Positions 1 to 19,280 of a stretch of 64,000 nucleotides of DNA are shown in pieces. The stretch lies in contig NZ_CANMVK010000001.1 of assembly GCF_947501405.1 (NCBI RefSeq), forward strand, positions 868,001 to 932,000, given 5' to 3'. The stretch comes from an uncultured Hoeflea sp. (GTDB taxonomy: Bacteria > Pseudomonadota > Alphaproteobacteria > Rhizobiales > Rhizobiaceae). The translations under genes were made by a program, and so were the position numbers. Every line of letters begins with the position of its first letter. The first letter of the stretch is position 1. The notes beneath the pieces are model-generated. The model was not told the origin of the DNA. It saw only the letters and a program-made list of their open reading frames with translations, and did no database searches.

Positions 1-287
1 GCGTATTCCACACAAATCGTAGTGTTCCCTTGCCCTAGCGGATCGGGAGCCACAGGCGATTGTGCCACGGCTTGCCGCATACGGGCGCTGTTCGGGGACG
101 GTATGCGCACAGGCAACACATATGACTGCACGGCTCGCGTTCATGCGGGAGCAGCGGCACGATGTGCGCCCTGTGAGGTTCAGGCTTTGAGCCGACCGGG
201 CTTTTCAAATTCTCATTCTTTCAAACCGCGCGGGGCCGGATCCCCGGTCGCGCGCTCCTGCCGGCGTGATAGCCAAGGAGGCAACCC
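1..287. other. Upstream region of the idr-like operon
   Basis: No convincing gene is seen here. The stretch ends with a strong Shine-Dalgarno sequence, AAGGAGG at 275-281, seven bases before the ATG at 288. GC-rich inverted sequence lies around 228-255. I do not see a convincing sigma-70 or sigma-54 promoter, nor an FNR-type TTGAT-N4-ATCAA site. The operon promoter must lie here or further left, outside the window. Confidence 0.5.
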
Positions 288-1361
288 ATGATCAAACCAG
301 TGGCTTTGATGTTTGCGGCGCTGTTGAGTTCGTCAGCGCTCGCTCAGGAGGCGACGCCGATCCAGCCGATGGATGTCAGCGCCGAGCGCGCCGAACTTGG
401 CAAGCGGCTGTTTTACGACAACAGGCTTTCGGGCGACACCGGTCTGTCCTGCGCAACCTGCCATCAGCCCGACAAGGCGTTCACTGACGGTGAAGCGCTG
501 TCGAGCGCCTATACCGGGGCCGGGCATTTTCGCAACGCGCCGACGCTGGCCAATGTCGGTTACCGCGACGCCTGGATGCATGACGGCCGCTTGGGCACCA
601 ACTTAAACGACGTCGCCCGGGAGATGATTACCGAAACCTACCTGATGAACATGGACATGCGGATCATGCAGGAGCGGCTCAAGCAGGATCCGGTCTATGT
701 CGACATGTTCAAGGCGGCCGGCATGTCCGAGCCGTCCAATGGCGGCGCACGCAACGCGCTGATGGATTTCATGAAGACCATCGTGTCGCGCGGCGCGCCG
801 ATCGACGGCGGCGAGTTGTCCGCCTCGGCCCAGCGCGGCAAGGCGATCTTTGAAAGCAAGGCCGGTTGTGCTGCCTGCCATTCCGGCCCGCGCTACACCG
901 ATGACCAGCCGCACAACACAGGTGTTGGCGGCAATCCGGAGATCTGGGAAAGCGCCGAGCGGCATTCGGCCTTCGTCACCTACGCCAAGTTCATGGGCAT
1001 CGAGAACTACATGAACCTGCGTGAGGATCTGGGCGCCTATATCCGCACCCACCGGCCCGACACCAAGCGCAGCTTCCTCACGCCGACGCTCCGCGAGCTC
1101 AAATGGACCGCGCCGTACATGCACAACGGCACCATGCAGACGCTTGAAGAGGTGGTCGATTTCTACGACGCCGGCGGCGGAGCCGATCCGCTCAAGGACG
1201 ACCGGCTCAAGCCGCTTGGCCTGGTGCCGAGCGAGAAAGCCGACCTGATCGCCTTCCTTGAAAGCCTGTCGGGCGAGAGCTTCGATGTCGATGAATATGT
1301 CTGGCGCGAAGACGACTACGACTACGCGCTGATCGAAGACTGGCGCAACACAGACAACTAA
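288..1361 (+). CDS. idrP1: Di-haem cytochrome c peroxidase, iodate-reductase associated (IdrP-like)
   Basis: This 357-residue secreted protein of the MauG/CcpA di-haem peroxidase family probably reduces hydrogen peroxide to water in the periplasm with electrons from c-type cytochromes. Residues 1-20 form a signal peptide ending ALAQ. Two haem-binding CxxCH motifs are visible, CATCH at 55-59 and CAACH at 194-198. The conserved C-terminal PYMHNGTMQTLEEVV segment of the family is present. An ideal AAGGAGG site supports the start. It is followed after 12 bases by a second peroxidase and then by Rieske and molybdopterin subunits, the set known from dissimilatory iodate reductase operons, where two such peroxidases are thought to remove peroxide formed during iodate reduction. 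Which of the two corresponds to P1 and which to P2 cannot be decided by eye, so the symbol is provisional. Confidence 0.85.
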   Translation: MIKPVALMFAALLSSSALAQEATPIQPMDVSAERAELGKRLFYDNRLSGDTGLSCATCHQPDKAFTDGEALSSAYTGAGHFRNAPTLANVGYRDAWMHDGRLGTNLNDVAREMITETYLMNMDMRIMQERLKQDPVYVDMFKAAGMSEPSNGGARNALMDFMKTIVSRGAPIDGGELSASAQRGKAIFESKAGCAACHSGPRYTDDQPHNTGVGGNPEIWESAERHSAFVTYAKFMGIENYMNLREDLGAYIRTHRPDTKRSFLTPTLRELKWTAPYMHNGTMQTLEEVVDFYDAGGGADPLKDDRLKPLGLVPSEKADLIAFLESLSGESFDVDEYVWREDDYDYALIEDWRNTDN

Positions 1362-1373
1362 GGAGTCAGAACG

Positions 1374-2501
1374 ATGAACTACAAAGCAATCCTCGCTTTC
1401 AGCCTGACTTCGCTGGCCGCAACGACAGCTCTGGCCCAGTCAGACCGCCCCGCTGAGCTTTCGGCACTTGGTCCCGTGCCGGTCCCGGCCGACAATCCAA
1501 TGACGCCGGAAAAGGTGGAGCTGGGCAAGAAGCTGTTTTTCGACCCGATCCTTTCGGGCAACAACGCCATGCCGTGCTCGGCCTGCCATCTGCCGGAAGC
1601 CGGCTGGGCGGTCCAGGACAAGATCAGCTTCGGCTATCCCGGCACCACCCACTGGCGCAACAGCCAGACGGTGATCAACTCAGCCTATTACGGCAAACTG
1701 TTTTGGGCCGGAGCCTCGGGCTCGCTGGAACATCAGGCCCGTTCCGCCGCCAGGGGCGGCGTCGCCGGCAATGGCGAAGACGACATGATGGAAGCCCGGC
1801 TGGCCTTCGTGCCGGAATACCGGGAAGCCTTCAAGACAGTGTTCGGCGATGATTGGCCGAGCGTGCGCCATGCCTATATGGCAATCGCCGCCTATCAACG
1901 CACCCTGGTTCAGACCGACACGCCGTTTGACAATTACATGAATGGCGACGACGCAGCACTTTCGGCCGAGGCAAAGCGCGGCCTGGATCTGTTTACGGGA
2001 AAAGCCGGTTGCGTGACCTGTCACAGCGGGCCGCTTCTGTCGGACGAGAAGTACTACAACCTCGGTGTTCCGCCCTATGACGGCTGGGAAGAGGATCCGT
2101 TGGCGCAGATCACCTTCCGGTTCGAGCTCTTCGCCAAGGGATCGACCGAGGAGATGTACCGCACCACCAAGGACGATCCGGGGCTCTATTTCCGCACCAA
2201 GCAGAAGTCGGACAAGGGCAAGTTCCGCACGCCGAGCCTGCGCTACACCAAATACACCTTCCCCTACATGCACAACGGCATGCTGGAGACGCTGCGCGAC
2301 GTGGTTGATTTCTACGACGCCGGCGGCGGGGAAAACGAGTTCGCAGCCAACAAGACCAGCCTGATCCAGCCGCTCGGCCTGTCGGATGACGAGAAAGATG
2401 ACCTGGTGGCGTTTCTGGAGAGCCTCAGTGGTGAGGAGATGCTCATCGAGACACCGGAAATCCCCGAAATGCAGCCGCTTCCCGCGGCGGTCCAGAACTA
2501 G
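1374..2501 (+). CDS. idrP2: Second di-haem cytochrome c peroxidase (IdrP-like)
   Basis: This is a 375-residue paralogue of the preceding gene, also secreted (signal peptide about residues 1-22, ending TALAQ). Haem motifs are CSACH at 68-72 and CVTCH at 213-217, and the family signature PYMHNGMLETLRDVVDFYD lies near the C-terminus. The N-terminal haem surroundings (MPCSACHLPEAGW) differ from those of its neighbour, so this is not a recent duplication. Paired di-haem peroxidases directly linked to an arsenite-oxidase-like molybdoenzyme are characteristic of the idr system and are not part of ordinary arsenite oxidase operons. The assignment as P2 rather than P1 is arbitrary. It ends 15 bases before the Rieske gene and is surely co-transcribed with it. 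Confidence 0.85.
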   Translation: MNYKAILAFSLTSLAATTALAQSDRPAELSALGPVPVPADNPMTPEKVELGKKLFFDPILSGNNAMPCSACHLPEAGWAVQDKISFGYPGTTHWRNSQTVINSAYYGKLFWAGASGSLEHQARSAARGGVAGNGEDDMMEARLAFVPEYREAFKTVFGDDWPSVRHAYMAIAAYQRTLVQTDTPFDNYMNGDDAALSAEAKRGLDLFTGKAGCVTCHSGPLLSDEKYYNLGVPPYDGWEEDPLAQITFRFELFAKGSTEEMYRTTKDDPGLYFRTKQKSDKGKFRTPSLRYTKYTFPYMHNGMLETLRDVVDFYDAGGGENEFAANKTSLIQPLGLSDDEKDDLVAFLESLSGEEMLIETPEIPEMQPLPAAVQN

Positions 2502-2516
2502 ACCGGAGTGAGAAAG

Positions 2517-3104
2517 ATGACGGAACTTAATGACAAGATCGTCGCCTCCATCAATGGCGAGAACGGCGAGGCCGCCGAGGCGGGAACCCGCAAATGCCTG
2601 ATGAACCGGCGTCAGTTTCTGCTGACCGGCGGCATCGCCACCACCGTGGTCATGGTCGGCATTCCCGGGCTTGCGCAAGCCCAAACCCCCGCGGCGGTCG
2701 CCACCTATCCGCGCAAGCTGATCGGCAAATTGTCGGAACTGAAAACCGACGAGCCGCTTGATTTCGAATATCCCGATGAAGGCCAGTACGCTGAATCGAT
2801 CCTGGTCAAGCTGGGCAAGAAGGCCGGCGGCGGCATCGGCCCTGAAGAGGATATCGTTGCCTTCAACTACACCTGCACCCACCAGGGCGGGCCGTTGCAG
2901 GGCACCTATCAGGCCGCCGACAAGGCGCTCGGGCCATGCCCGCTGCACCTGACCACATTCGATCTGACGCGCCACGGCATCTTCATCTCCGGGCAGGCCT
3001 ACCAGTCGCTTCCGCAAGTGCTGCTGGAGGTCGAGGGAGACGACATCTACGCCGTCGGCATGTTCGGCCTGATCTACGGCCGTTTTGACAATCTGCAGGG
3101 TTGA
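2517..3104 (+). CDS. idrB: Iodate reductase small subunit, Rieske 2Fe-2S protein (IdrB/AioB family)
   Basis: This Rieske subunit of an arsenite-oxidase-type heterodimer passes electrons to or from the molybdopterin subunit in the periplasm. The ATG at 2517 has GGAG eight bases upstream; a GTG at 2508 is less likely. From this start the protein has 195 residues. A Tat signal, NRRQFLLTGG, begins near residue 30, so the folded complex is exported by the twin-arginine route with the large subunit riding along. The 2Fe-2S ligands are CTH (C120, H122) and CPLH (C141, H144). The two extra cysteines that form a disulfide in many Rieske proteins (CTHxGC, CPCH) are replaced by Gly and Leu. It overlaps the vicinity of the next gene's ribosome site. 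AioB of arsenite oxidase is the alternative, but the peroxidase genes favour iodate reductase. Confidence 0.85.
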   Translation: MTELNDKIVASINGENGEAAEAGTRKCLMNRRQFLLTGGIATTVVMVGIPGLAQAQTPAAVATYPRKLIGKLSELKTDEPLDFEYPDEGQYAESILVKLGKKAGGGIGPEEDIVAFNYTCTHQGGPLQGTYQAADKALGPCPLHLTTFDLTRHGIFISGQAYQSLPQVLLEVEGDDIYAVGMFGLIYGRFDNLQG

Positions 3105-3115
3105 GGAGCACACTC

Positions 3116-5791
3116 ATGTCCACACCATATTATGTCCCAGAACAGTCCGTTCCCCTGCCTCCGCCGGATGCGGATGTGATTTCCACGGCGTGCGACTATT
3201 GCATCGTCGCCTGCGGATACAAGGTCTATCGGTGGCCTGTGCGCGGCGGCCGCAATGGCGGTCCGGAAGCGGCCAACAACGCCTTTGGCGAAGACTTCCC
3301 GGTGGCGCCGCTGGGCGCCTGGGTTGCGCCCAACCAGCACAACATCGTGCTGCACAATGGCGAGCCGCATCACGTCGTCATCATTCCCGACAAGGACACC
3401 GAATATGTCAACTATTCGGGCAACTCGTCGATCCGCGGCGGAGCGATCGCCCAGAAGGTCTACAATCCGCAGACGCCGACCCGCGACCGGCTGAAATCGC
3501 CGATGGTGCGGATGTTCGGCGTGCTGATGCCGGTGACCTGGGATTTCGCGCTCGAGATCGCCGCTGAAGTCGGCAACTACGTGCTCGAAAAGCACGGCAC
3601 CAACGCCTATGGCGTCAAGACCTTCTCCTATGGCTACATGGAAAACACCTACGCCATCACCAAATATGCGCTGCGCCATGTGCGTACCGCCAATTTCACC
3701 TTCCACGACACGCCGTCCGACGTGACCTCGACGCCGGGGTTCCGGGATGCGGGCTTTGACAATTTCGGCCCAAGCTACGACGATTGGGCGGAAGCCGACA
3801 CGCTGATGATGTGCGGCACGGACCCTTACGAGTCCAAGACCATCCTGTTCACCGACTTCATCATGCCGGCGATCCAGAACGGCCAGAAGACCATCTTCAT
3901 GCTGCCGCGACGCACCGGCGGCGTGGCCTTTGCCGAAAAAAACGGTGGGCTGCTGCTCGACATCCAGCCGGGCACCGATCTTCCGGTGGTGCTGGCGATT
4001 GCCCGGGTGATCGTCGAGAACGGCTGGCAAGACGACGAGTGGATCAAGAACTGGGTCAACAACAAGTGGGAAAGCTCGTCGGGCTTCGGCCAGGGCACCC
4101 GCAACACGCCATGGCAATGGCGTACCACCTGGGGCAAGTTCCAGACCAACGGGTTTGACGACTGGAAGGAATGGCTGCTCGCCCAGGATTATGCGGAGCC
4201 GGCCAAGGCCGCCGAGATCGCCCAGATCGATGTGGAGAAGATCTACACCGCGGCGGAATGGATGGCCAAGCCCAAGGAAGACGGCTCGCGTCCGAAAACC
4301 TCGATCATGATCGAAAAGGGGTTTTACTGGTCCAACAACACCGGCAACACACAGGCAATCTCCGCGCTGGGCATCGTGGTTGGCGCCGGCGGCCGTCCCG
4401 GTCAGGTGATCGGACGCGCCGGTGGGCACCAGCGCGGAGGTTTGCGCGGCGGCGGTTACCCGCGCAACAAGTCGCCCGAGAAGCTGCCCGGACGGCGGCG
4501 TCGCGCCATGGATACCGACCGGTATCTGATGAGCGGCCACACAAGGCTCGCGCATGTGATCGGCACCACCTGGGTGCAGGCAATGTGCGGCTCACAGTCG
4601 CTTCAGGCCAAGTTCGACGAGTTGACAACGCGCAACCCGCACCAGGTCACCAGCTTTGAGAAGCAGGACATCATCGACACCTTGAAGCGGCGTGTCGACA
4701 GTGGCGGCATGGTGGTGTGGAACCAGGACATCTATCTGGTCGATCCGATCGGCGCGCGCTATGCCGATATCGTCTTCCCGGCGTCGGGCTGGGGCGAGGA
4801 GACTTTCACCCGCGCCAATGGCGAGCGGCGGCTAAGGCTCTATCCCAAATTCTACGATGCGCCGGGCGAGGCGAAGCCGGATTGGTGGATCATCGCCGAA
4901 CTGTCCAAGAAAATGGGCTTTGAGGGCTTCGACTGGAAAAACTCCAACGATGTGCTTGAAGAGGGCGCCCGGCATTCGCGCGGCTCGCGCAAGGACTTCA
5001 ACATGGTCCTGGTCGCAGCACGGCGCGAAGGCAAGACGCTGCATGAGAAGATGGGCGAGTTCGGCACCAATGGCATTCAGGGCCCGGTGCTGATGCTCGA
5101 AGACGGAAGCCTCGAGGGCACCAAGCGGCTGCACGATGTCAATCGTGTGCTGCCGGAGACCGGACCCGCGGGCGCCAATGTCTTCAACAAGAAGCTCACC
5201 CATTTCAACAGCCAGACCGGCAAGTGCAACCTGCAGAAGGCGCCGTGGGATCTGTTCTCATCCTATTGGGAATGGCTCAAGCCCCGCGAGGACGAGATCT
5301 GGATCTCGTCGGGCCGGATCAACGAGCGCTGGCAGTCGGGTTACGACGACCGCCGCCGCCCCTACATCGTGCAGCGCTGGCCTGAAAACTGGATCGAGAT
5401 CCATCCCAGTGTCGCCGAAGCCCGGGGCATTGAAAGCGGAGACTATGTGCAGGTCTATTCCGACCGGATCCCGGTTCAGAAGGACACGATCGTGGGTGTC
5501 GAGGGAAGCGATTTCGACTTCGACTCGCTGCTCAAGAACGGCCATATCGAGCTGACCAACGCGTCGATCACCGCAGTGGCGATCGTCACTCCGGCGGTCA
5601 AGGAAAACCTTGGTTACATGGATTTCCTGCACACCTCACAGCCTGCCAACGCGCTGTCGGGCCGGGTCGTCGACTGGATCAGCGGCAACTACAACTACAA
5701 AATGGGCGTCGGCAAAGTGCGCAAGATGGGTGAGAGCCCCTACAAGTCGCAGTTCCGCTCCATGTCGTTTGCCCGCCGCGACATCGCCTGA
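3116..5791 (+). CDS. idrA: Iodate reductase catalytic subunit (IdrA-like molybdopterin oxidoreductase)
   Basis: This 891-residue Mo-bis-MGD enzyme of the DMSO reductase superfamily, arsenite oxidase branch, most likely reduces iodate in the periplasm. The ATG at 3116 follows GAGGAG at 3103-3108. C26-x2-C29-x3-C33 (CDYCIVACGY) binds an iron-sulfur cluster. The usual fourth cysteine position reads SSIRGG, as in AioA, implying a 3Fe-4S cluster. R434 and H438 (RAGGHQ) correspond to substrate-pocket residues of AioA. The AioA loop carrying the other two pocket residues (CHATREMG) is replaced by FHDTPSDVTSTPG around 196-208. It has no signal peptide, consistent with hitch-hiking on the Tat-targeted Rieske partner. 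Arsenite oxidase is the nearest alternative, but the altered pocket and the two upstream peroxidases argue for the Idr clade. Confidence 0.8.
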   Translation: MSTPYYVPEQSVPLPPPDADVISTACDYCIVACGYKVYRWPVRGGRNGGPEAANNAFGEDFPVAPLGAWVAPNQHNIVLHNGEPHHVVIIPDKDTEYVNYSGNSSIRGGAIAQKVYNPQTPTRDRLKSPMVRMFGVLMPVTWDFALEIAAEVGNYVLEKHGTNAYGVKTFSYGYMENTYAITKYALRHVRTANFTFHDTPSDVTSTPGFRDAGFDNFGPSYDDWAEADTLMMCGTDPYESKTILFTDFIMPAIQNGQKTIFMLPRRTGGVAFAEKNGGLLLDIQPGTDLPVVLAIARVIVENGWQDDEWIKNWVNNKWESSSGFGQGTRNTPWQWRTTWGKFQTNGFDDWKEWLLAQDYAEPAKAAEIAQIDVEKIYTAAEWMAKPKEDGSRPKTSIMIEKGFYWSNNTGNTQAISALGIVVGAGGRPGQVIGRAGGHQRGGLRGGGYPRNKSPEKLPGRRRRAMDTDRYLMSGHTRLAHVIGTTWVQAMCGSQSLQAKFDELTTRNPHQVTSFEKQDIIDTLKRRVDSGGMVVWNQDIYLVDPIGARYADIVFPASGWGEETFTRANGERRLRLYPKFYDAPGEAKPDWWIIAELSKKMGFEGFDWKNSNDVLEEGARHSRGSRKDFNMVLVAARREGKTLHEKMGEFGTNGIQGPVLMLEDGSLEGTKRLHDVNRVLPETGPAGANVFNKKLTHFNSQTGKCNLQKAPWDLFSSYWEWLKPREDEIWISSGRINERWQSGYDDRRRPYIVQRWPENWIEIHPSVAEARGIESGDYVQVYSDRIPVQKDTIVGVEGSDFDFDSLLKNGHIELTNASITAVAIVTPAVKENLGYMDFLHTSQPANALSGRVVDWISGNYNYKMGVGKVRKMGESPYKSQFRSMSFARRDIA

Positions 5792-5797
5792 GCAATC

Positions 5798-5825
5798 ATC
5801 GCCGCCGGATCCGTCCGGCGGCGAT
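5798..5825 (+). terminator. Perfect 12-bp stem hairpin after idrA
   Basis: A perfect 12-bp inverted repeat (ATCGCCGCCGGA and its complement) with a 4-base loop starts seven bases after the idrA stop codon. No T-run follows, so it is either a weak terminator that lowers expression of the downstream HEAT gene or a 3' stabiliser of the idr mRNA. Confidence 0.55.
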
Positions 5826-5871
5826 CTCCGCAGCGCCCGGGTTTGGCGCCAAACAATTCAACAGGTCGATC

Positions 5872-8040
5872 ATGCTCAATATGCCACACTCTGCCAATCG
5901 AAACCGTGCAGCGATCCTGCCCACCGTGCTGACCCATCTGGAAACCGGCAACGAGGTGTTGCGCACCCATTCGGTCAGGGCTCTGCAGGCTCTTGCGCCG
6001 CAGGACGAGATTTCCCGACAGGCATTTGTGGCAGCCTTGCTCGACGAAGACCCGGATGTGCGTACCGATGCAATGACGGCGCTGGCCGGCTGCGCCCGGC
6101 CCGAGGATGCCGCGACGATCCGGCAGTCGCTGGAAGGCGATCCGGTGCTTGAGGTCAAACTTGCCGCCATCGCAATTCTCGCCGCGCTTAAAGACAACGC
6201 GTCGCTGCCATTGATCCGCGGCCTTGCCAAGGCGCGGATGGACGACACCGTGGCCTGGGAAGACGATATCGGCGGATGGGACGAATGGCTCGAGGTGCAG
6301 CGCGCGGCGATTGCCGCGCTGGCCGGGATGCGTGCAGCCGAGGCGATTGATGATCTGATCGCCATCCGCACCGATGAATTCGGTCAGAACCTCGATGTCG
6401 AGGTGTTTGCCGCGCTGATGTCGATTGGCGGCGCTGGAACGGCGCATGTGCTTGACTGCGCCCAGTCTCTGACCGGGCTTGCGCGCAAGCGGGCGCTCGA
6501 TGCGCTCAGGGCCGGCGACGCGGCCAATCTGACGGCCTATGTGGACCTGATGCTCGATGACGAGGACGCTGGAATTCGCATGTTGGCGGTTCCGCTGCTT
6601 GCGGCATCCGACCCTCGCGTGATGCAGATTGCGGAAAACGATCCGGACGCGGCGGTGCGCTGCACGGCGATCTCCGCATTCGCCGGGGATTTTCAGATCG
6701 TCGCGCAAGTTGGCCTTGCCGATGATGACGAGAGTGTACAGGCGACGGCGCTCGAGCATCTTGCGGTTCCTGTGCCGGCAGCTTTGCACGAGGCGCTGGC
6801 CCCGCATATGGCGGTATGGATCAAGTCCGCCGGGACGGCGCTGGCGGCGGTCTCTGCCAGACGGCTGCGCGAGTTTGACGCGGTACAGGCTTTGGAATTG
6901 CTGCCTGAGCTGATTGAAGACACCGAGCGTGCGCTTGAAGTGCGATTGGCCGCGGTCAATGGCCTGGCCGACATTGATGGGCCTGACACTACGTCTTTGC
7001 TGACCGGATTTCTCGACAGTGCCTCGCAACAGGTTCGCACCGTAGCGGCACGGCATCTGGCGTTGCGGGCCGGGACGGGAGATGCCGAGGCTGTCGCCGC
7101 GCTTGCCGCGGCCATCGACATGACCTTGCTGGATGAAGACCAAGCGAACATTGAGCTGCCGCCGGAAGATGGTCCCGACGCCGCCACCCAGCGGTTTGAT
7201 GACGCAAAGCCGTCGGTGCGGATTTCGCCGGATGGCGAGATCGTCGAGCATGACGGCGAGGAACCGGCAGCGGGTTTGTCGACGCTGGCTGCGATCCAGT
7301 TCACCATGCCCGATGCGCCGGAAATGGCCGAAGACACGCCGGAGGAAGGCAGCGCCAAGCGTCGCAAACGCCGTTCGGTCGAGGGCCCGGAGAACATTGC
7401 CGAGGATCTTGCCCGGGTGTCGTTGGGGCTTTGCGGCGGGATCGATGCGCTGGAGTTTCGCTCGGCGATTCTGCGCCAAACCGGTTCTGACGACGCGGGC
7501 TTGAGTGCCGCCGCCTATCAGGCGCTTGCCGCTCACTGCGATGCATTCGGCATGGAAGACCATGTCGAAGACGGTGGCGCTTTGGAGATTTTCCACGGCG
7601 GCCTTGCCCATTCCAGCTCGCAGGTTCGCGCTACGAGCGCGCGCCAACTGGCTTCGGCCGGTCAGGCGCGGGACCAGCTTCGTGCCTGCCTTGACGATGA
7701 AGACGCCGTGGTACGGGCCATTGCGGTGGGGGCGGTCGCCACCCCGCAGGAATGCGCCGCCTATGTCGTCGATCCGTCGATGACGGTGCGCAATGCGGCT
7801 CTCGACCTCATGTTTTCAGGCCCCGAAGCACAGGAGCGGGAGGCTGCCTGCGCGGCACTGATTTCCAGTGATTACATCGACACGGTGGGCGTGGCGATCC
7901 ATCGCTCGCCGTGGTTCTTCGATCAGGTGATCAGCACGCTTCAATCCGATGACGCGCCGGCCAAGACCATCAGCGTGCTGTTGCAGGCAATCGGCGCTTC
8001 TGAAGTGCCGGCGCCGCAGCTGACGGTGGAAAAGCGATAA
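5872..8040 (+). CDS. HEAT-repeat protein, candidate Idr assembly factor
   Basis: This is a 722-residue soluble, acidic protein built of helical HEAT/PBS-lyase-type repeats, recognisable as units such as EVLRTHSVRALQAL and DPDVRTDAMTALAG, each about 31 residues, over roughly residues 15-410 and again 485-700. Between the blocks lies an acidic, low-complexity stretch (about 415-485) ending in a basic KRRKRR patch. No signal peptide or membrane segment is seen, so it should be cytoplasmic. HEAT scaffolds bind proteins and have no catalytic residues. Its place directly behind idrA, and before a DUF2478 gene, suggests a cytoplasmic chaperone or scaffold for loading cofactors into IdrAB before Tat export. 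That role is inferred only from position. Confidence 0.7.
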   Translation: MLNMPHSANRNRAAILPTVLTHLETGNEVLRTHSVRALQALAPQDEISRQAFVAALLDEDPDVRTDAMTALAGCARPEDAATIRQSLEGDPVLEVKLAAIAILAALKDNASLPLIRGLAKARMDDTVAWEDDIGGWDEWLEVQRAAIAALAGMRAAEAIDDLIAIRTDEFGQNLDVEVFAALMSIGGAGTAHVLDCAQSLTGLARKRALDALRAGDAANLTAYVDLMLDDEDAGIRMLAVPLLAASDPRVMQIAENDPDAAVRCTAISAFAGDFQIVAQVGLADDDESVQATALEHLAVPVPAALHEALAPHMAVWIKSAGTALAAVSARRLREFDAVQALELLPELIEDTERALEVRLAAVNGLADIDGPDTTSLLTGFLDSASQQVRTVAARHLALRAGTGDAEAVAALAAAIDMTLLDEDQANIELPPEDGPDAATQRFDDAKPSVRISPDGEIVEHDGEEPAAGLSTLAAIQFTMPDAPEMAEDTPEEGSAKRRKRRSVEGPENIAEDLARVSLGLCGGIDALEFRSAILRQTGSDDAGLSAAAYQALAAHCDAFGMEDHVEDGGALEIFHGGLAHSSSQVRATSARQLASAGQARDQLRACLDDEDAVVRAIAVGAVATPQECAAYVVDPSMTVRNAALDLMFSGPEAQEREAACAALISSDYIDTVGVAIHRSPWFFDQVISTLQSDDAPAKTISVLLQAIGASEVPAPQLTVEKR

Positions 8041-8072
8041 CGCCGAACGCGCTGCGAATACAGGATGGCGGA

Positions 8073-8684
8073 ATGATGCTGCAAACGGATATTGCGACGA
8101 GCTCCTGGCAAACAGCCGGATTTGAACCGTCGGTGGGCGCGGCAATGGCGGCGTGGCCGCAAAGCGCAGCGGATTTCATCGAAACCGGCGGCGCCGGGCT
8201 CTACGGCCTTGATCTCGGCGACACCGCGCAAACGCGGGATCGGCTCTCGGTGCTGGTGAAGGTGCTCGCGGCGCGTGGCAGCAGGCTTGAGGGCTTTATT
8301 CAGGATGGCAGCGCCAAACAGGCCAATGGCAGTCACCAGGACATGTATCTGATGAATTTGGGCAGCGGCGAACGCGTGCGGATCTCCGAGCGGCGGGGAC
8401 GGCTGGCGCGGGGATGTCATCTGGACTGGTCGGTTTTCACCGGACTGGCCGATCGGCTGACGCAGCGGCTCGATCATGGCGCCGATTACCTGATCATCAA
8501 CCGGTTTGGCCGCGCCGAGGCGGAGGGCAGGGGGATGACCACCGTGCTGGAGCGGGCTCTGGACGCACAGATCCCGGCAATCGTCGGGGTTCGCCGGGAG
8601 TATCGGGAGCCGTGGGCGCGGTTTCATGAAGGGCTAGCGATGGATGTGCCGCTATGTGACGTTTCATCGGCGGCCGCCCGGTAG
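8073..8684 (+). CDS. DUF2478 protein, molybdenum-operon associated
   Basis: This 203-residue protein matches the DUF2478 family, whose members occur next to molybdate transport and molybdoenzyme genes. The C-terminal half shows the family features: a CHLDWS segment, then DYLIINRFGRAEAEGRGM, then IPAIVGVRREYREPW. The N-terminal third diverges and lacks an obvious P-loop. It starts 32 bases after the HEAT gene behind AGGATGGCGG; an ATG one codon later is also possible. Family biochemistry is unknown. Here it probably serves molybdenum cofactor supply for IdrA, which is inference from context. The gene ends the idr co-directional block. Confidence 0.75.
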   Translation: MMLQTDIATSSWQTAGFEPSVGAAMAAWPQSAADFIETGGAGLYGLDLGDTAQTRDRLSVLVKVLAARGSRLEGFIQDGSAKQANGSHQDMYLMNLGSGERVRISERRGRLARGCHLDWSVFTGLADRLTQRLDHGADYLIINRFGRAEAEGRGMTTVLERALDAQIPAIVGVRREYREPWARFHEGLAMDVPLCDVSSAAAR

Positions 8685-8710
8685 CATGCTTGCCATATCA
8701 AACGGGAATG

Positions 8711-8734
8711 CCTCTTACAAATGTAAATGAGAGG
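8711..8734. terminator. Imperfect hairpin between convergent genes
   Basis: CCTCT-TACA-AA-TGTA with an outer AGAGG arm forms a bulged stem between the convergent DUF2478 and SDR genes. It could terminate both, but the bulge makes it weak. Confidence 0.3.
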
Positions 8735-8753
8735 TGCGAGTGTCCTGTTGGGC

Positions 8754-9497
8754 CTAATAGGTGGCGCGGCCGCCAGAAAGATCGAACACGCCGGCGGTGG
8801 TGAAGCTGTTCTCCCGCGAACACAGGAAAGCAATCATCTCCGCGGCCTCCGCGAGTTCGAGAAAGCGGGCGCGGGGGATCTTGGAGAGCATGTAGTCGAT
8901 GTGGGTCTGGGCCATCTGGTCGAAAATGCGTGTGCGGGCCGCGGCCGGCGTGACGCAGTTGACGGCAATATCGAGGCCCGCCAGTTCCTTGCCGAGCGAT
9001 TTGGTGAACCCTATTACCCCGGCCTTGGATGCCGAATAGGCAGACGCGTTGGGATTGCCTTCCTTGCCCGCGACCGAGGCGATGTTGACGATGCGGCCAT
9101 AGCCGTTGGCGCGCATGGTGGGCACCACGGCGCGGTTGACGTGGAAGGTGCCGTTGAGATTGATCGCCACAATGCGGGCGAATTCATCGACCGGGTAATC
9201 TTCCACTGGCGCATTGGAACCGGCGATCCCGGCTGAATTGACCGCGATGTCGATGCTTCCAAAAGCTTCCTGGGTTTTGGCGGCGGCGGCTTGCACGCTG
9301 TCCCAGTCGGAGACGTCGACTTCGAACGCAACGGCATGATTGAGCGATTGCGCGGTGCGCGCGGCCAGATCGGCATCCATGTCCCAGATGGCGATCCTGG
9401 CCCCGCCTTCGCATAGCCGCCGGGCCACAGCCTCGCCGATGCCTTGGGCGCCACCGGTTATGACCGCCGTCATGTTCTCGAACTGTGTTTCGCTCAT
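8754..9497 (-). CDS. SDR family NAD(P)-dependent oxidoreductase
   Basis: This 247-residue classical short-chain dehydrogenase is cytoplasmic. It has the cofactor loop TGGAQGIG at 14-21, NSAG near 87-90, catalytic S141 and YSASK at 154-158. The start is fixed by AAGGAG ten bases upstream on the minus strand; in-frame codons further upstream run into the intergenic region. It resembles FabG-like and sugar-acid dehydrogenases, and the substrate cannot be read from the sequence. It is transcribed away from the ABC substrate-binding protein gene, sharing a 254-bp promoter region, and may belong to the same catabolic pathway as the genes to its right. Confidence 0.85.
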   Translation of the reverse strand: MSETQFENMTAVITGGAQGIGEAVARRLCEGGARIAIWDMDADLAARTAQSLNHAVAFEVDVSDWDSVQAAAAKTQEAFGSIDIAVNSAGIAGSNAPVEDYPVDEFARIVAINLNGTFHVNRAVVPTMRANGYGRIVNIASVAGKEGNPNASAYSASKAGVIGFTKSLGKELAGLDIAVNCVTPAAARTRIFDQMAQTHIDYMLSKIPRARFLELAEAAEMIAFLCSRENSFTTAGVFDLSGGRATY

Positions 9498-9751
9498 GCC
9501 CCGTTTCCTCTCCTTGACCCGGCGACGCTTTCTGTGCGCCGCGTGCGGCCTTGACCTTATGGTGCTTCGGTTGGGGCGAGACTGCCACCGGTCCGGTGGA
9601 AAAAAGAGACGCTGGGGTATGGCAACCAACTCGCGGTCATCGCGAGCGGGCTTGTTGCTGCTAACCTTGGGTAAGTTGCCGTGAAGAACATGCAGGCGGC
9701 GGGACGGTGACATTTGAAATGGTGGCCTGCGCTTGCTTAGGGAGGAATACC
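9498..9751. promoter_or_regulatory. Divergent promoter region with two inverted repeats
   Basis: This 254-bp gap separates the SDR (minus) from the binding-protein gene (plus). It contains CCACCGG-T-CCGGTGG at 9585-9599 and CTCGCG-N5-CGCGAG at 9630-9646, both perfect inverted repeats. They could be operators for the AraC-type regulator encoded downstream or another factor. No -35/-10 pair is convincing. Confidence 0.35.
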
Positions 9752-11011
9752 ATGAAAAAGGCACTTTTGGCCTCAGTTGCGACCTGTTTCCTGCTGCCTG
9801 CGGGAGCCATGGCCGAAGACACCGTTAAAATCGGGGTTCTCGTGGCGCTTGAAGGCGTGTTCGCGGCCGGCGGCGCTGACGGCGTACGCAATGTGGAAAT
9901 GGCCGTGGAACAGGCCGGCGGCATGGCCGGCGGCAAGAAAATCGAAATCGTGGTCGCACCCAGCGACACCACACCCGACACCGCGGTGCGCCAGGCGCGC
10001 AAGCTCATCGAGCAGGACGGCGTCGACATCATTCTGGGACCACTGTCGGGTTCGGAAGGCATCGCCATGCGCGATTATGCCAAGACGGTTCCCGACAAGA
10101 CCATCATCAACGGCATTTCCGGCGCTCTTGAAACCACATGGGTCGACCCCGCGCCGAACTTCTTCCGCTTCAATCTGGACGGCTCGCAATGGGGCGCCGG
10201 TCTCGGCTCTTATGTGGTTGAGGAAAAAGGCTGGAACAAGGTGGCCACCGTGGCCGCTGACTATTCGTTCGGCTACACCAACTTCCTGGGTTTCGCGGTG
10301 GATTTCTGCCGCTCTGGCGGTGAGATTGTCGAGCGCTTCTGGGTGCCGTTGGGCTCGTCCGACTTTGGCGGCGTGATTGCAGCAATGCCCGATGACATCG
10401 ACGCGATCTATCTTGGCGTTGGCGGCACTGATGCGATCAACTTCCTCAACCAGTACGAACAGGCGGGCGCCGAAACCAACCTGATCGGCGGCACCATCAT
10501 GGCCGACCAGACGGTGCTGACCTCCAAGGGTCGTGCCAAGGACGCGCTGATCGGCACGCCGACATCGGGTCCGCTGGCGACAGACGATCCGAGCCCGGCC
10601 TGGCAGAACTACGTCAAGGCCTATCAGGATGCGTTCCCCGAGGATGAGCGGTTCCCGGCGCCATCGCTGTTCGGCGTCGGCTATTACGTCGCCGCGCTCG
10701 CTGCAATCCAGGGCCTGAACGAGGTCGAAGGCGATCTCAGCGACGGCCAGGTGAAACTCCGCGAAGTGCTGTCGACCAAGCCGCTTGAAACCCCGTTGGG
10801 CACGGTGACGCTCAACGAAAACCGTCAGGCCTCGGGATCGGTGTTCATCACCGAAGTGGTCGAAGATGGCGAGGGCGGCCTCAAGGTCGAGCTCAAGTCC
10901 CGCGTGGACGACATCAACCAGACGCTCGGCATGACGCCTGACGAGTTCCGCGCCATGGGTCTGCCGTCTCGCGACACACCCGACTGCGCAGCTCTCGGCG
11001 GCAAGGGCTAA
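9752..11011 (+). CDS. Branched-chain-type ABC transporter substrate-binding protein
   Basis: This 419-residue periplasmic binding protein of the Leu/Ile/Val-binding (type I fold) family delivers a small organic solute to the LivHMGF-like complex encoded downstream. The ATG at 9752 follows GGAGG at 9741-9745. Residues 1-21 form a cleavable signal peptide (MKKALLAS..GAMA). The mature start DTVKIGVLVALEG is typical of the family, as is DGVDIILGPLSGSEG. Homologues near aromatic-degradation genes often bind aromatic acids or amides. The permease genes lie 2.4 kb away, past an alcohol dehydrogenase and a regulator, but no other partner importer is present. Confidence 0.88.
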   Translation: MKKALLASVATCFLLPAGAMAEDTVKIGVLVALEGVFAAGGADGVRNVEMAVEQAGGMAGGKKIEIVVAPSDTTPDTAVRQARKLIEQDGVDIILGPLSGSEGIAMRDYAKTVPDKTIINGISGALETTWVDPAPNFFRFNLDGSQWGAGLGSYVVEEKGWNKVATVAADYSFGYTNFLGFAVDFCRSGGEIVERFWVPLGSSDFGGVIAAMPDDIDAIYLGVGGTDAINFLNQYEQAGAETNLIGGTIMADQTVLTSKGRAKDALIGTPTSGPLATDDPSPAWQNYVKAYQDAFPEDERFPAPSLFGVGYYVAALAAIQGLNEVEGDLSDGQVKLREVLSTKPLETPLGTVTLNENRQASGSVFITEVVEDGEGGLKVELKSRVDDINQTLGMTPDEFRAMGLPSRDTPDCAALGGKG

Positions 11012-11024
11012 CGCCACGCCTCTT

Positions 11025-11062
11025 CCGATGCCCGGTTCGCGATCGCGCGGACCGGGCATCGG
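11025..11062 (+). terminator. 12-bp stem hairpin after the binding-protein gene
   Basis: CCGATGCCCGGT at 11025-11036 pairs perfectly with 11051-11062 around a 14-base loop. It sits 14 bases after the stop codon. Such hairpins after binding-protein genes usually keep their mRNA level above that of downstream genes. No T-run follows. Confidence 0.5.
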
Positions 11063-11118
11063 CGGTTTCGCGCGCCGCGCCGCCTTTGGTGGCCCGGTTC
11101 TTGTGAAGGTTCGGGCTG

Positions 11119-12180
11119 ATGTCACTGATTTCCTTCGTAACCCGCATTCATTTCGCCGACCGCGTGCTTGAAGACGCGCTGCCGGAGGAGCTTGAACAAC
11201 TTGGCATCCGGCGGCCTTTGATCATCACCGATGAGGCCGGTGAACACGAGGATTGCATTGACCGGTTGTGGGATTCGCTGCCCGCCGATTGCGATCCGGT
11301 CCATCTGGGCGGATTTCGCCCGCAGGTGAAAGGCGCGCAGCTTCGTGCAGCGTCGAGTACCTTCCGCCGCAAGACATGTGATGCAGTAATCGGTTTTGGC
11401 GGTGCGGTGGCGCTCGATCTCGCGCGCGCCATCGACACGCGGCGCCCGGGCCAACAGGCGGCGCAATTGCTGACCATTCCGACAACAACCGAAAGCGTGG
11501 GCCTCGGGCCAGTGGGCGGCGCCATTTCGCGGCCGCCGGTGTTTAATCCGCGCAATCCCTCCGTGGTGCTGTGTGACGCCACGCTGACCGTGTCCACCGG
11601 CGCCTACGCGACCGCGATCGCCGGGATGGACACGCTGACCCATTGCCTGGAAGCCTATCTGGGCACCGCCTTCAATCCGCCCGCGGATGGCATCGCGCTC
11701 GAAGGGCTAAGACGGGCGATGCGCAATCTTTTGCGGGCGGTGGAGGATGGTCAGGACCTGGAGGCGCGGCGCGAGATGCTGGCGGCCGCACTCAATGCCG
11801 GGCTGGCCGCGCGCAAGGGGCTCGGTGGCATCGACGCGGCGGCCAAGGCGCTGGAGGCGGAAGCGGGCATTCGGGACCGTCACGGTTCGCTCAATGCGGC
11901 GCTGCTGCCGCATGTGCTGGCCTTCAACTCCCCGGCGGTGAGCGATCGGTTGCCGGTGGTGCGTGATGCAATCGGTGCTGCGGCCGGTTCGGATGTCGCC
12001 ACCGTTATCGCTGAACTCGGCGAACGGCTGGGTTTGCCTGACCGCATCGGCTCCCTGGGGCTGGGCCGGGCGGCGCTGCGCCGGGCCGCCAAGGCCGCAG
12101 CTGCGGATCCGGCCAACCAGACCAATCCGCGCCATGCCACGGCGGAGGACTATTTCAAGCTGCTTGAGGAGGCTTGTTAG
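11119..12180 (+). CDS. Iron-containing alcohol dehydrogenase / maleylacetate-reductase-like
   Basis: This 353-residue cytoplasmic protein of the group III (iron-dependent) alcohol dehydrogenase fold has a nucleotide-binding GFGGAVALDLARA segment near 92-104, TIPTTTESVG near 121-130, and the metal-binding DTLTHCLEAY helix near 173-182. Maleylacetate reductases, which close several aromatic pathways by reducing maleylacetate to 3-oxoadipate, are of this size and share the PTT loop, so that reaction is possible. The sequence alone does not prove it. It lies between the binding-protein gene and the AraC regulator, all on the plus strand. Confidence 0.78.
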   Translation: MSLISFVTRIHFADRVLEDALPEELEQLGIRRPLIITDEAGEHEDCIDRLWDSLPADCDPVHLGGFRPQVKGAQLRAASSTFRRKTCDAVIGFGGAVALDLARAIDTRRPGQQAAQLLTIPTTTESVGLGPVGGAISRPPVFNPRNPSVVLCDATLTVSTGAYATAIAGMDTLTHCLEAYLGTAFNPPADGIALEGLRRAMRNLLRAVEDGQDLEARREMLAAALNAGLAARKGLGGIDAAAKALEAEAGIRDRHGSLNAALLPHVLAFNSPAVSDRLPVVRDAIGAAAGSDVATVIAELGERLGLPDRIGSLGLGRAALRRAAKAAAADPANQTNPRHATAEDYFKLLEEAC

Positions 12181-12417
12181 ATATCCAAAGGGCCTGCAAG
12201 CATTGCGTGAAGGCTGAGAAAATCCGTTACGCTTGGGTGTAGAGAGATTAGCGGCGCCAGCAATTCTTGGCCGATGATCAAAGAGGCGAAAGAATTATTT
12301 TGCAATGCACAAATATTCGGCGGTGCAAAAAGAGTCGAAAACACATTTGTTTACGGTAACCGATTTCTACGTTATCGTTTGATGTTGATGCATCATTAGA
12401 ATGCAAGAGGGAGGAAT
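12181..12417 (+). promoter_or_regulatory. AT-richer promoter region before the AraC regulator
   Basis: This 237-bp stretch is clearly lower in GC than its neighbours, especially 12285-12380. TTTTGCA at 12298-12304 and TGCAAAA at 12324-12330 form an inverted repeat that could be a regulator site. The region ends with GGGAGGAAT directly before the ATG of the regulator. Confidence 0.4.
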
Positions 12418-13257
12418 ATGAGCACAGCATTGGCGGTGTTTCATGGTGCTTTCGGCAGGGTGTGCCTCTACTTGATGGACCGGGGGATGGTGCCCCACGG
12501 CCATCGTGAAGGTCATCTGATTTTCCATGTCCAGGGTCCACCCGCCCAGGTCGTTGTCAACGACCGGGCCTGGCCGATGGCGCCTGGCCAGGCGGTGGCA
12601 ATAAGCCCCTGGCAATCCCATTATTTTCAGCCCGTGCACAATGATGCGCCCACTCTGGGGCTGGTGCTTTACATCCGTCCGGCGTGGTTTCTCGAGGCCT
12701 CCCGGCGGGCCACGGCGTCGTTGAGTTTCGGGCGCGTCGGCATCGAGGTGACCGACCGGCTGGCGCGGCTGGTCTATGGCACCACGCAATCGATGATGGA
12801 TCAGGACAAAGAGGATCCGCTGATTGAGGACCGTCTGTGCTCGCTCACACAACTGGCGTTCGACCAGTCCTGGCAATGGACCACCCGCGGCGAAAGCTTT
12901 ACGGGGCCGGCCTTCGCCAAACGGGATTACCGGATCCGCAATGCGCTGCGGGTGCTGCAGCAGCGTGTAGGCGAGGCTCTGGAACTTGATACGGTGGCGC
13001 GCGAGGTCGGCCTGTCCCGGCCGCACTTTTACAAACTGTTCCGCGAGCAGATCGGTCTCACCCCCAATCTCTATCTCAATGCGCTGCGCATGGAGCGCGC
13101 CATCGAACGCCTGGCGGTAAGCCAGGAAGCGGTCTCCGATATCGGATTCGATCTGGGCTTTTCCAGCCAGGCAAGCTTTTCGCGCTTTTTCATCGCCAAT
13201 GGCGTGGTGCCGCCTTCGGCCTACCGCCGCAGTATCCACGTCGCGCCGCCGCAATGA
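12418..13257 (+). CDS. AraC-family transcriptional regulator
   Basis: This 279-residue DNA-binding regulator has an N-terminal cupin-like effector domain (about 15-110, with HGHREGHLIFHVQG) and a C-terminal double helix-turn-helix (about 175-275). The second half includes VSDIGFDLGFSSQASFSRFF, the classic AraC signature. A strong GGAGG precedes the ATG. Placed immediately before the importer permeases and the long catabolic gene train, it is the likely activator of that operon, responding to the imported compound or a metabolite. The effector is unknown. Confidence 0.88.
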   Translation: MSTALAVFHGAFGRVCLYLMDRGMVPHGHREGHLIFHVQGPPAQVVVNDRAWPMAPGQAVAISPWQSHYFQPVHNDAPTLGLVLYIRPAWFLEASRRATASLSFGRVGIEVTDRLARLVYGTTQSMMDQDKEDPLIEDRLCSLTQLAFDQSWQWTTRGESFTGPAFAKRDYRIRNALRVLQQRVGEALELDTVAREVGLSRPHFYKLFREQIGLTPNLYLNALRMERAIERLAVSQEAVSDIGFDLGFSSQASFSRFFIANGVVPPSAYRRSIHVAPPQ

Positions 13258-13375
13258 TGCTTTTCCCGACGACGGGCGCAACGAAAAGACTGTGGGGTAT
13301 ACGGGTAAGGCCAAGGGCGGGCTAGTGTTTCGGTTCGGGTCCGCGACTATCGGACCGCAACAACGGGCTGATCCT

Positions 13376-14389
13376 ATGAGGGATTTTTTCAGACGCAGGC
13401 CGATCTGGTCGCTGATCATCGCTATCGCGGTGGCGATCGTTCTGTGGATGATTTTCGCGCCCTGGCCGCCCGGCCTTGTCGATACGCTCGGGCGCAAGCG
13501 GATCTTTCTCAATGCGGTGTTTGGGGGTGTGACGCTGGGGGCGCTGTACTTCCTGGTGGCGTCGGGTTTCACACTGATTTTCGGGCTGATGCGCAACGTC
13601 AATCTGGCCCATGGCTCGCTTTATCTGCTGGGCGGCTATATCGGCTTTGAAGTGTCTGAGGCGACCGGCTCCTGGCTGTTTGCCTTTCCGGTGGTCTTTG
13701 TCGTGGTGGCGGCGCTGGGGCTGGTGTTACAGAACCAGGTGTTCCGGCGCATGGAAGGCGAAGAACTGCGCCAGACCATGGTGACCATCGGCCTTTCGGT
13801 GGTGATCGCCGACATCATGCTGTGGATCTGGGGCGGCCAGTCCTACACCATTCTGTCGCCCGACTGGCTCAGCGGGCCGACGACGCTGCCGATCATCTCT
13901 TCGATCAAATCCAGCGGCGAAGTGGTCTACCTCAGATACCCCGCGGTGCGTATCGCCATCCTGGTCGCGGCGATCGCCATCGGCATCGCCATGTGGCTGG
14001 TGCTCAACAAATCCCGTCTGGGAATGCTAATCCGCGCCGGCGTCGACGATCGTGAAATGCTGGCGGCCTCCGGTGTGCGCATCCAGTATGTGTTCTTGGC
14101 CGTCTTTGCCTTCGGCGCCGGGCTTGCCGGCATGGCCGGGATTGTCGGCGGCACCTTTCAGTCGCTGTCTCCGGGCGAGGACACGCGCTTTCTTCTGGCA
14201 AGCCTCGTGGTGGTGATTGTCGGCGGCATGGGCTCGATCCCGGGGGCTGCGATTGGCGCGCTGGTGATTGGCCTGTCGGAACAAATCGGCCTTGTCTATG
14301 CACCCACCTATTCGGTGGTGTTTACCTTCCTGATCATGGCGGCGGTGCTCGCCTTCCGGCCCCAGGGCCTGCTCGGGTCTGTGCGATGA
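13376..14389 (+). CDS. Branched-chain-type ABC transporter permease (LivH-like)
   Basis: This 337-residue inner-membrane permease has about eight to nine hydrophobic segments. An N-terminal MRDFFRRRPIW stretch precedes the first membrane span. The conserved LivH-type cytoplasmic loop near DDREMLAASGVRI and the helix PGAAIGALVIGLSEQ are present. No clear Shine-Dalgarno precedes the ATG at 13376; a GTG at 13325 behind AAGGGCGG is an alternative start. It forms the channel with the LivM-like protein encoded ten bases downstream. Confidence 0.86.
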   Translation: MRDFFRRRPIWSLIIAIAVAIVLWMIFAPWPPGLVDTLGRKRIFLNAVFGGVTLGALYFLVASGFTLIFGLMRNVNLAHGSLYLLGGYIGFEVSEATGSWLFAFPVVFVVVAALGLVLQNQVFRRMEGEELRQTMVTIGLSVVIADIMLWIWGGQSYTILSPDWLSGPTTLPIISSIKSSGEVVYLRYPAVRIAILVAAIAIGIAMWLVLNKSRLGMLIRAGVDDREMLAASGVRIQYVFLAVFAFGAGLAGMAGIVGGTFQSLSPGEDTRFLLASLVVVIVGGMGSIPGAAIGALVIGLSEQIGLVYAPTYSVVFTFLIMAAVLAFRPQGLLGSVR

Positions 14390-14398
14390 GGGGGGATC

Positions 14399-19254: not shown

Positions 19255-19280
19255 CTGGCATTGCGCCAGGGGAGGAAGAG

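Follow-up and report, generated by a model that had tools for sequence, protein, structure and literature searches.

A conserved HEAT-repeat protein gene beside the iodate-reductase-type genes of an uncultured Hoeflea sp.

The window, a 64,000-nucleotide stretch of an uncultured Hoeflea sp., holds an idr gene set of a known kind, already known from marine bacteria. Directly 3' of idrA lies a HEAT-repeat protein gene which, judged from its place in related loci, is an overlooked conserved partner gene of this known set; the searchable idr literature makes no mention of it. The whole reading, a horizontally acquired iodate-reductase unit of alphaproteobacterial type with the mechanism and HEAT partner proposed below, is given a probability of about 0.85. 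The features are as follows, with negative positions lying to the left of the window.

-3111 to -2392, minus strand: regulator (RR; Pfam), left of the window
-2324 to -93, plus strand: sensor kinase (HK; Pfam), just left of the window
1..287, plus strand: right-hand portion of the 380 bases separating HK from idrP1 (ORFs, Pfam, repeats)
288..1361, plus strand: idrP1, di-haem cytochrome c peroxidase-like, 357 aa
1374..2501, plus strand: idrP2, di-haem cytochrome c peroxidase-like, 375 aa
2508..3104, plus strand: idrB, Rieske [2Fe-2S] subunit with twin-arginine signal, 198 aa
3116..5791, plus strand: idrA, catalytic subunit of molybdopterin type, [3Fe-4S] motif near the N-terminus, 891 aa counted from the ATG at 3116
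5872..8040, plus strand: HEAT-repeat protein gene 3' of idrA, 722 aa (Pfam HEAT_2, 70 bits)
8073..8684, plus strand: DUF2478 protein (PF10649, 124 bits), last gene of the unit
8685..8757, no strand: right edge of the unit; synteny resumes at 8754 in one genus-mate (G012) and at 8758 in another (G010)

The core genes and their distinction from arsenite oxidase

The sequence-only reading had described a tight four-gene operon of two peroxidases, a Tat-exported Rieske protein and an AioA-like subunit, and the four plus-strand ORFs, their Pfam domains and their motifs bear this out. Both peroxidases match CCP_MauG (126 bits for P1, 146 bits for P2) and carry two CxxCH motifs, at 55 and 194 in P1, whose N-terminus is hydrophobic, and at 68 and 213 in P2. 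"P1" and "P2" are used locally here for the first and second peroxidase; papers disagree on which is P1. The nearest solved chain of P1 is 6e1c, a "Di-heme enzyme" (114 bits), and those of P2 are 6e1c (156 bits) and the cytochrome c551 peroxidase 1eb7 (153 bits). IdrB has a Rieske domain (Pfam) with the motif C-x-H-x18-C-x2-H and the twin-arginine sequence NRRQFLL; its listed start is GTG, with an in-frame ATG at 2517. IdrA, a protein of the Mo-bisMGD family, combines Rieske_3 3Fe-4S, Molybdopterin and Molydop_binding domains (Pfam) and has C-x2-C-x3-C-x70-S over residues 26-104, while no signal peptide motif was seen in its protein sequence. The mechanical idrA ORF opens at 3101, upstream of the ATG. 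The same-strand run extends beyond 5791 into the HEAT-repeat gene and then the DUF2478 gene.

The order P1-P2-B-A had been called unusual, which does not hold: it is the sole order, on one strand, in all 72 fetched loci with a complete set of four (the 80 fetched loci are the best 80 matches to the window's own clade, and 8 of them are cut), and it recurs on Vibrio and Azonexus plasmids. The literature agrees, with idrP2,P1,B,A stated for SCT and IR-12 (PMC10989891) and idrAB described as always preceded by two peroxidases (PMC8801600).

Plain annotation would call the operon arsenite oxidase, as had been foreseen, since both Aio-subunit NCBIfam models exceed their equivalog cut-offs (TIGR02694, 125 bits against 95.65, for IdrB; TIGR02693, 420 bits against 359, for IdrA); neither model tells Idr and Aio apart. 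Among solved structures, too, AioA and AioB (8r3a for IdrB) come closest, and the two systems share fold families, the Rieske plus 3Fe-4S molybdopterin architecture and three of four pocket residues, kept here as H197, R434 and H438. Nevertheless, it is hardly tenable that the operon encodes arsenite oxidase AioBA and that the neighbouring peroxidase genes are unrelated to it. In a quick 57-row tree (41 IdrA and 16 AioA rows, SH-aLRT only) the window protein falls on the IdrA side, separated from the AioA rows with a support of 100; the AioA rows include NT-26, the IdrA rows are experimentally uncharacterised, and the program flagged long branches for two rows (L012 and L024). The AioA pocket glutamate, presumably E203 in A. 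faecalis numbering, is present in 16 of 16 AioA rows and replaced by Ser, Asp or Ala in 40 of 40 IdrA rows, S205 taking its position in the window protein. The peroxidase pair, present in every complete locus, was absent from the annotated AioA loci viewed, and 7 of 17 genus-mates encode a separate AioA-like protein at 31-36% identity. The window IdrA is 28% identical to NT-26 AioA versus 66%, 50% and 49% to the Vibrio, Azonexus and Thiothrix proteins; it is 94% identical to the nearest fetched IdrA and 93-94% to Rhodobacteraceae and Oricola loci. By tree position and pocket residue, arsenite oxidase is rejected and the catalytic subunit is of the IdrA type rather than an AioA. The sequence-only reading had favoured an Idr-type operon in an alphaproteobacterium and named a phylogeny against AioA as its check; with the subunit outside the AioA clade and the peroxidases as neighbours, the operon type is supported. 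Supported too is the class of the host; a search of the assembly for a 16S gene found none.

The Idr systems of Denitromonas sp. IR-12, Pseudomonas sp. SCT, Azoarcus sp. DN11 and Aromatoleum TC-10 have the same core genes in the same order, with the same pattern of Tat/Sec targeting and the same cofactor motifs, and the IdrA, IdrB and IdrP motifs match those given for DN11 in PMC10149662. A two-component system is linked there too, but with a sigma-54 regulator where the window unit has an OmpR-type regulator and a PAS hybrid kinase. The window unit further differs in its HEAT and DUF2478 genes after idrA, in that no cytochrome c551 or moaA gene was seen in it, and in its IdrA, which shares ~50% identity with that of the betaproteobacterial plasmid (Azonexus).

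The HEAT-repeat gene beside idrA

A HEAT ORF recognised by the family profile lies 3' of idrA in 79 of the best 80 fetched loci, a count that overstates the spread over all IdrA since these loci represent the window's clade; the sole locus lacking a match is cut inside idrA. Among the 79 matches, those of L050 (72 bits) and L066 (42 bits) are short pieces where a contig ends, the L063 gene is broken into two ORFs, and the L030 ORF shares its first 568 bases with idrA. The gene is kept beside idrA across 18 IdrA clusters at 90%, whereas the commonest other flanking family found reaches 36% of the clustered loci (34 of 94). A terminator or sigma-70 promoter between idrA and the HEAT gene is rejected: the scan's counts (promoter-like, 2 versus 1.9 in shuffles; terminator-like, 6 versus 8.0) are no higher than in shuffles, and no match lies at 5791-5872 on the plus strand.

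Class-wide, the HEAT gene was detected in 10 of 385 genomes, all idrA-positive, and additionally in G185. None of 373 idrA-negative alphaproteobacterial genomes sampled had it, with at most two first-look candidates scored per genome, a statement of lower sensitivity as the same scan missed the G185 gene, which was found later. In the phylum sample, three of five idrA-positive genomes (G455, G461 and G653) had no match at E<=1e-12; the protein was not found at E<=1 in the deep-branching G461 and G653, and the best match in G455 was no better than 7e-6. Idr thus works somewhere in these genomes without HEAT. Five idrA-negative genomes (G704, G514, G542, G574 and G590) give 53-68 bits over ~90-220 positions, which we read as generic HEAT repeats. 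A HEAT-like gene beside idr on the Vibrio plasmid scores 8 bits (E 0.005), below the Pfam cut-off, and its possible kinship with the family is a lead only.

No N-terminal hydrophobic stretch was found in the HEAT protein, and 1 of 28 aligned members has a fairly hydrophobic start (1.97). It would be a cytoplasmic partner dedicated to the Idr enzyme, and we tentatively suggest, at somewhat below even odds, that it helps IdrA-IdrB assembly, cofactor loading or Tat proofreading. Chaperones of the TorD/NarJ/DmsD type offer a functional parallel, as cytoplasmic helical proteins encoded beside their molybdenum enzymes. The parallel is not one of membership: Pfam finds only HEAT repeats, a HEAT solenoid, and no TorD-family match in the protein. 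More speculatively, it may be an undescribed maturation factor dedicated to the alphaproteobacterial iodate reductase, representing a non-TorD chaperone class for a molybdenum enzyme that is exported by Tat yet lacks its own signal peptide. It may then mark the idr form of mostly marine, aerobic bacteria, as opposed to that of the anaerobic respirers of iodate, which do without it.

Conceivable too, though less likely than not, is a regulatory or scaffolding protein in place of a maturation factor, acting in signalling or in assembly of an electron-transfer complex. HEAT solenoids are general binding scaffolds, the best solved matches of the family profile are designed alphaRep binders, and in G347 the gene, though linked, lies 13.5 kb from idrA. 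Against this, the gene is adjacent 3' in 79 of 80 loci under either upstream regulator, a kinase/regulator pair or a Crp-type gene, and its place beside idrA irrespective of regulator type favours a link to the enzyme over a link to one regulator.

That the gene is a hitch-hiker with no role in iodate reduction is improbable. Its low conservation (median pairwise identity 26% versus 79% for IdrA) and its absence from some IdrA genomes would fit such a passenger, but its retention across IdrA clusters unmatched by other neighbours, and its invariant Trp and Ser-x-Leu positions, speak against it. W129, W136, W139, Q143, S470 and L472 are invariant in 28 of 28 aligned members; the simple Ser-x-Leu pattern occurs in 55 of 62 HEAT ORFs, not all. 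HEAT and IdrA distances correlate at 0.80 (permutation maximum 0.34), which could come partly from shared host descent.

Limits of the unit and its regulation

By blastn of four genus-mate stretches, synteny stops at -3205 (G014 and G012), which places the left edge outside the window, and resumes at the right edge given above. The unit between these breaks reads RR-HK-P1-P2-B-A-HEAT-DUF2478; between -3082 and 8533 it runs collinear with a locus of the Rhodobacteraceae, while no IdrA-level match was found in 17 genus-mates. The iodate-reduction gene set was probably acquired horizontally, as these comparisons suggest. GC content (0.59-0.66 over 1-20000) shows no contrast there, and a GC-marked island is rejected; a tblastx comparison of the flanks was too permissive and was set aside. 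Of the 80 fetched loci, 14 have a DUF2478 gene no more than 10 kb from idrA, and in G653 this gene follows idrA directly.

The hybrid histidine kinase and OmpR-type regulator may control the operon via CGTCACA repeats upstream of idrP1, found at -49 and -7, left of the window. Across 17 regions such repeats matched 37 times, against a mean of 8.2 and at most 19 in shuffles; the window's own copies are 42 bases apart, not 10, which counts against the repeat reading.

Iodate reduction and its meaning

Most likely, to judge from its sequence relatives, the enzyme reduces periplasmic iodate under low oxygen. By analogy with published relatives, IdrA would pass the Tat pore together with IdrB and draw electrons from a periplasmic carrier via the Rieske centre. 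Iodate would be reduced to hypoiodous acid with four electrons, the hypoiodous acid then disproportionating, and the two exported peroxidases would dispose of H2O2 or some other oxidant. A search of the host genome found no member of the chlorite dismutase family (PF06778), the control being positive in 7 of 14 genomes, and the Cld step of the SCT model is disfavoured here.

Iodate reduction here is probably a low-oxygen electron sink rather than growth-supporting respiration. Dissimilatory respiration of the kind that lets Denitromonas IR-12 and Azoarcus DN11 grow anaerobically is unlikely, although the core genes are alike and knock-out and complementation showed idrA to be needed for growth of IR-12 on iodate (PMC8692401). 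According to PMC11445184, three marine aerobic idr Alphaproteobacteria reduced iodate under static conditions, but under N2 the cultures neither grew nor reduced it; induced washed cells of one, Roseovarius azorensis, did reduce iodate anaerobically. The window IdrA belongs to the class of those aerobes and is, as noted, ~50% identical to the Azonexus form. With R. azorensis, Notoacmeibacter marinus and Aliiroseovarius sediminilitoris, described in PMC11445184, the host shares class and lifestyle. The same P1-P2-B-A-HEAT run is present in an Aliiroseovarius MAG (L047), and the HEAT gene would be expected in the loci of those three species.

A different main substrate, such as bromate or hypohalite, with iodate incidental, is highly improbable. 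The relaxed pocket, with Ser for Glu, is silent on which oxyanion binds, but R. azorensis is induced by 0.1 uM iodate with idr up-regulation (PMC11445184).

Bacterial iodate reduction is argued in PMC11445184 to feed the iodide pool of surface seawater and hence atmospheric ozone chemistry, and the window operon is one more carrier of this known pathway. Studies of Idr have reckoned with a set of four genes, yet within the clade of alphaproteobacterial loci every judgeable one of the best 80 has a fifth beside idrA. Heterologous expression or knock-out designs that omit the HEAT gene may fail or mislead, and its presence or absence offers a testable split between the marine-aerobe and the anaerobic-respirer forms of idr.

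The idr operon and its distinction from arsenite oxidase

The sequence-only reading had claimed a set of two di-haem peroxidases, a Tat-targeted Rieske protein and a subunit resembling that of arsenite oxidase (AioA), and all four genes were located on one strand at 288-5791, followed by two further genes:

288-1361, + strand, P1, di-haem peroxidase-like protein
1374-2501, + strand, P2, di-haem peroxidase-like protein
2508-3104, + strand, B (idrB), Tat-targeted Rieske protein
3116-5791, + strand, A (idrA), molybdopterin subunit with 3Fe-4S
5872-8040, + strand, HEAT-repeat protein
8073-8684, + strand, DUF2478 protein

As that reading expected of plain annotation, B and A each exceed the cut-offs of NCBIfam arsenite-oxidase models, because of which automatic annotation would misname them. 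The iodate reductase (Idr) assignment was assessed via a quick LG+G4 tree of 57 rows, 16 AioA and 41 IdrA-like (picked from 102), labelled by identity to the window protein and by neighbours, with SH-aLRT support only and a program warning of long branches for loci L012 and L024. The two groups split at a single branch (support 100), and window IdrA groups with Rhodobacteraceae and Oricola IdrA (98 and 100). The window protein thus falls outside an AioA group that includes the characterised NT-26 protein, while the IdrA side holds no experimentally characterised IdrA. In a separate alignment, three AioA pocket residues (H197, R434 and H438) are retained in IdrA, and the fourth position, Glu in 16/16 AioA rows (E203 in A. 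faecalis), is Ser in 35, Asp in 4 and Ala in 1 of the 40 IdrA rows not gapped at it. Both the split and the replaced Glu bear out an Idr rather than Aio type. Window IdrA is 28% identical to NT-26 AioA, and its identity to plasmid-borne IdrA is 66% for Vibrio, 50% for Azonexus and 49% for Thiothrix. Of 17 genus-mates, 7 (G004, G005, G008, G012, G013, G015, G016) have an AioA-like protein with 31-36% identity to window IdrA; the window's own genome has no comparable second one among the matches listed.

The P-P-B-A order had been called unusual. Scanning the GTDB genome collection once yielded 479 relatives, and in the best 80 loci (IdrA 76-94% identical to the window) P1-P2-B-A on a single strand was the sole order in 72/72 with all four genes, the other 8 being cut. 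The available text of PMC10989891 gives idrP2,P1,B,A as common to strains SCT and IR-12, and that of PMC8801600 has the peroxidase genes always preceding idrAB; the name idrABP1P2 was mistaken for the physical order. The Azoarcus DN11 Idr motifs in the accessible part of PMC10149662 are also those of the window proteins. The window operon is a sound Idr operon of an already known kind.

Borders and upstream region of an eight-gene unit

Similarity of genus-mates to the upstream neighbourhood ends at -3205, left of the window start (G014 and G012), and downstream similarity begins at 8754 (G012) or 8758 (G010); these two blocks are on separate contigs in G012. Eight genes lie between the edges: those for an OmpR-type response regulator and a PAS hybrid kinase, then P1, P2, B, A, HEAT and DUF2478. 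An IdrA-level match was found in 0/17 genus-mates, and the nearest IdrA locus, from an uncultured Rhodobacteraceae bacterium, aligns piecewise at the DNA level from -3082 to 8533. Acquisition of the unit is the simplest reading, and all genus-mates may instead have lost it; GC content gave no island signal for it. The picture resembles that in Aromatoleum, where the idr flanks map to two contigs (PMC8801600). At 8754-11011, the genes for a short-chain dehydrogenase (-) and for a substrate-binding protein of branched-chain amino acid type (+) sit together, as they do in G012 and G010, and another transporter operon of this type lies left of the unit.

A kinase homologue directly precedes P1 in 32/62 loci with enough upstream sequence, and a Crp-type regulator family occurs instead in 22/94 clustered loci. 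This family (L073:172-939 and 21 other loci) has a Cys-rich N-terminus, and its gene diverges from idrP1 in Kiloniellaceae-type, Pseudovibrio and Roseibium loci, in which no kinase/regulator pair was seen. In 17 of 30 extracted kinase-P1 intergenic regions, CGTCACA (at most 1 mismatch), a motif chosen from these same regions, occurs 37 times (shuffles: mean 8.2, maximum 19), with at least one copy in 15/17 and copies exactly 10 bases apart in 8/17. Upstream of the window's P1 there are two copies, spaced 42 bases.

The surrounding genes of idr, found in 145 genomes, are described as poorly conserved in the available text of PMC8692401. Crude gene calls make our counts over 94 loci undercounts: MoeA at least 22, cupredoxin at least 20, MoaA at least 8, MogA-like at least 6 and DUF2478 at least 12 by clustering (14/80 by BLAST). 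Families matching cytochrome bd subunit I, ethylbenzene-dehydrogenase/cytochrome c and carboxypeptidase-regulatory-like proteins lie near idrA/HEAT in L150 (genome G347), L087, L096, L102, L153 and L154, and stand between the two genes in G347.

A HEAT-repeat gene downstream of idrA

A profile built from the HEAT-repeat ORFs of the window and the 80 loci (18 IdrA clusters at 90% single linkage) matches an ORF 3' of idrA in 79/80, the sole miss (L085) being cut inside idrA. In 78/79 the gene shares the strand of idrA and starts no more than about 450 bases from the idrA stop codon, and in the remaining one the called ORF start overlaps idrA; two of the matches, located at contig ends, are fragments. 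In a class sample of 385 genomes, 12 carry IdrA and 4 more AioA-like matches only. HEAT (E<=1e-20) was found in 10/385, all IdrA-positive: 8 adjacent to idrA, one 13.5 kb away (G347) and one on another contig (G341). It is also present directly 3' of idrA in G185, therefore in 11/12 IdrA genomes; the G119 contig stops within idrA. With only two candidates scored per genome, it was reported in 0/373 genomes without IdrA.

In the phylum sample, the window's own genome excluded, HEAT was found in 1/4 IdrA genomes (G749) and not in G653, G455 or G461, and the Azonexus and Thiothrix plasmid records gave no match. On the Vibrio plasmid, a HEAT-like gene with a similar Trp motif and a near-zero profile score adjoins idr on the opposite strand. 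HEAT is therefore a feature of a single part of the IdrA tree. The Vibrio locus (L020, megaplasmid of the microplastic-particle isolate THAF190c) has a full P1-P2-B-A set at 6187-11682, listed in the collection without gene annotation and flanked by this gene and a cupredoxin gene. L147, a deep-branching alphaproteobacterial locus (G653), has a DUF2478 gene (7220-7744) directly 3' of idrA where HEAT would be, and a kinase/regulator pair upstream. An Anaerolineae-labelled MAG (L084) has an alphaproteobacterial-type P1-P2-B-A-HEAT run (IdrA 77%), which mis-binning or transfer may explain.

HEAT has a median pairwise identity of 26% over 62 loci, versus 79% for IdrA. Its distances follow those of IdrA (r 0.80 across 35 rows after dereplication, against at most 0.34 in 500 permutations), with 0.90-0.93 for P1, P2 and B. 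All 28 aligned members share W129, W136, W139, Q143, S470 and L472, the window protein has no hydrophobic start (0.63 vs 1.65-2.05 for exported proteins, same crude measure), and the best solved-structure matches are designed HEAT binders (alphaReps). These features suggest that HEAT is a dedicated partner of IdrAB, a binding protein that stays in the cytoplasm. By analogy with TorD/NarJ-type chaperones, we prefer a role in which HEAT would act in IdrAB maturation or Tat proofreading.

Literature searches returned only off-topic papers for iodate with HEAT repeat and none for HEAT repeat with molybdoenzyme. HEAT repeat in this sense is absent from the main texts of PMC11445184, PMC8692401, PMC10100899, PMC8801600, PMC10643221, PMC10149662, PMC10989891, PMC10746228 and PMC12535851; the gene may be drawn in figures, supplements or the 2020 SCT paper. 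What merits follow-up is the HEAT gene, conserved yet overlooked, together with the eight-gene unit as delimited here.
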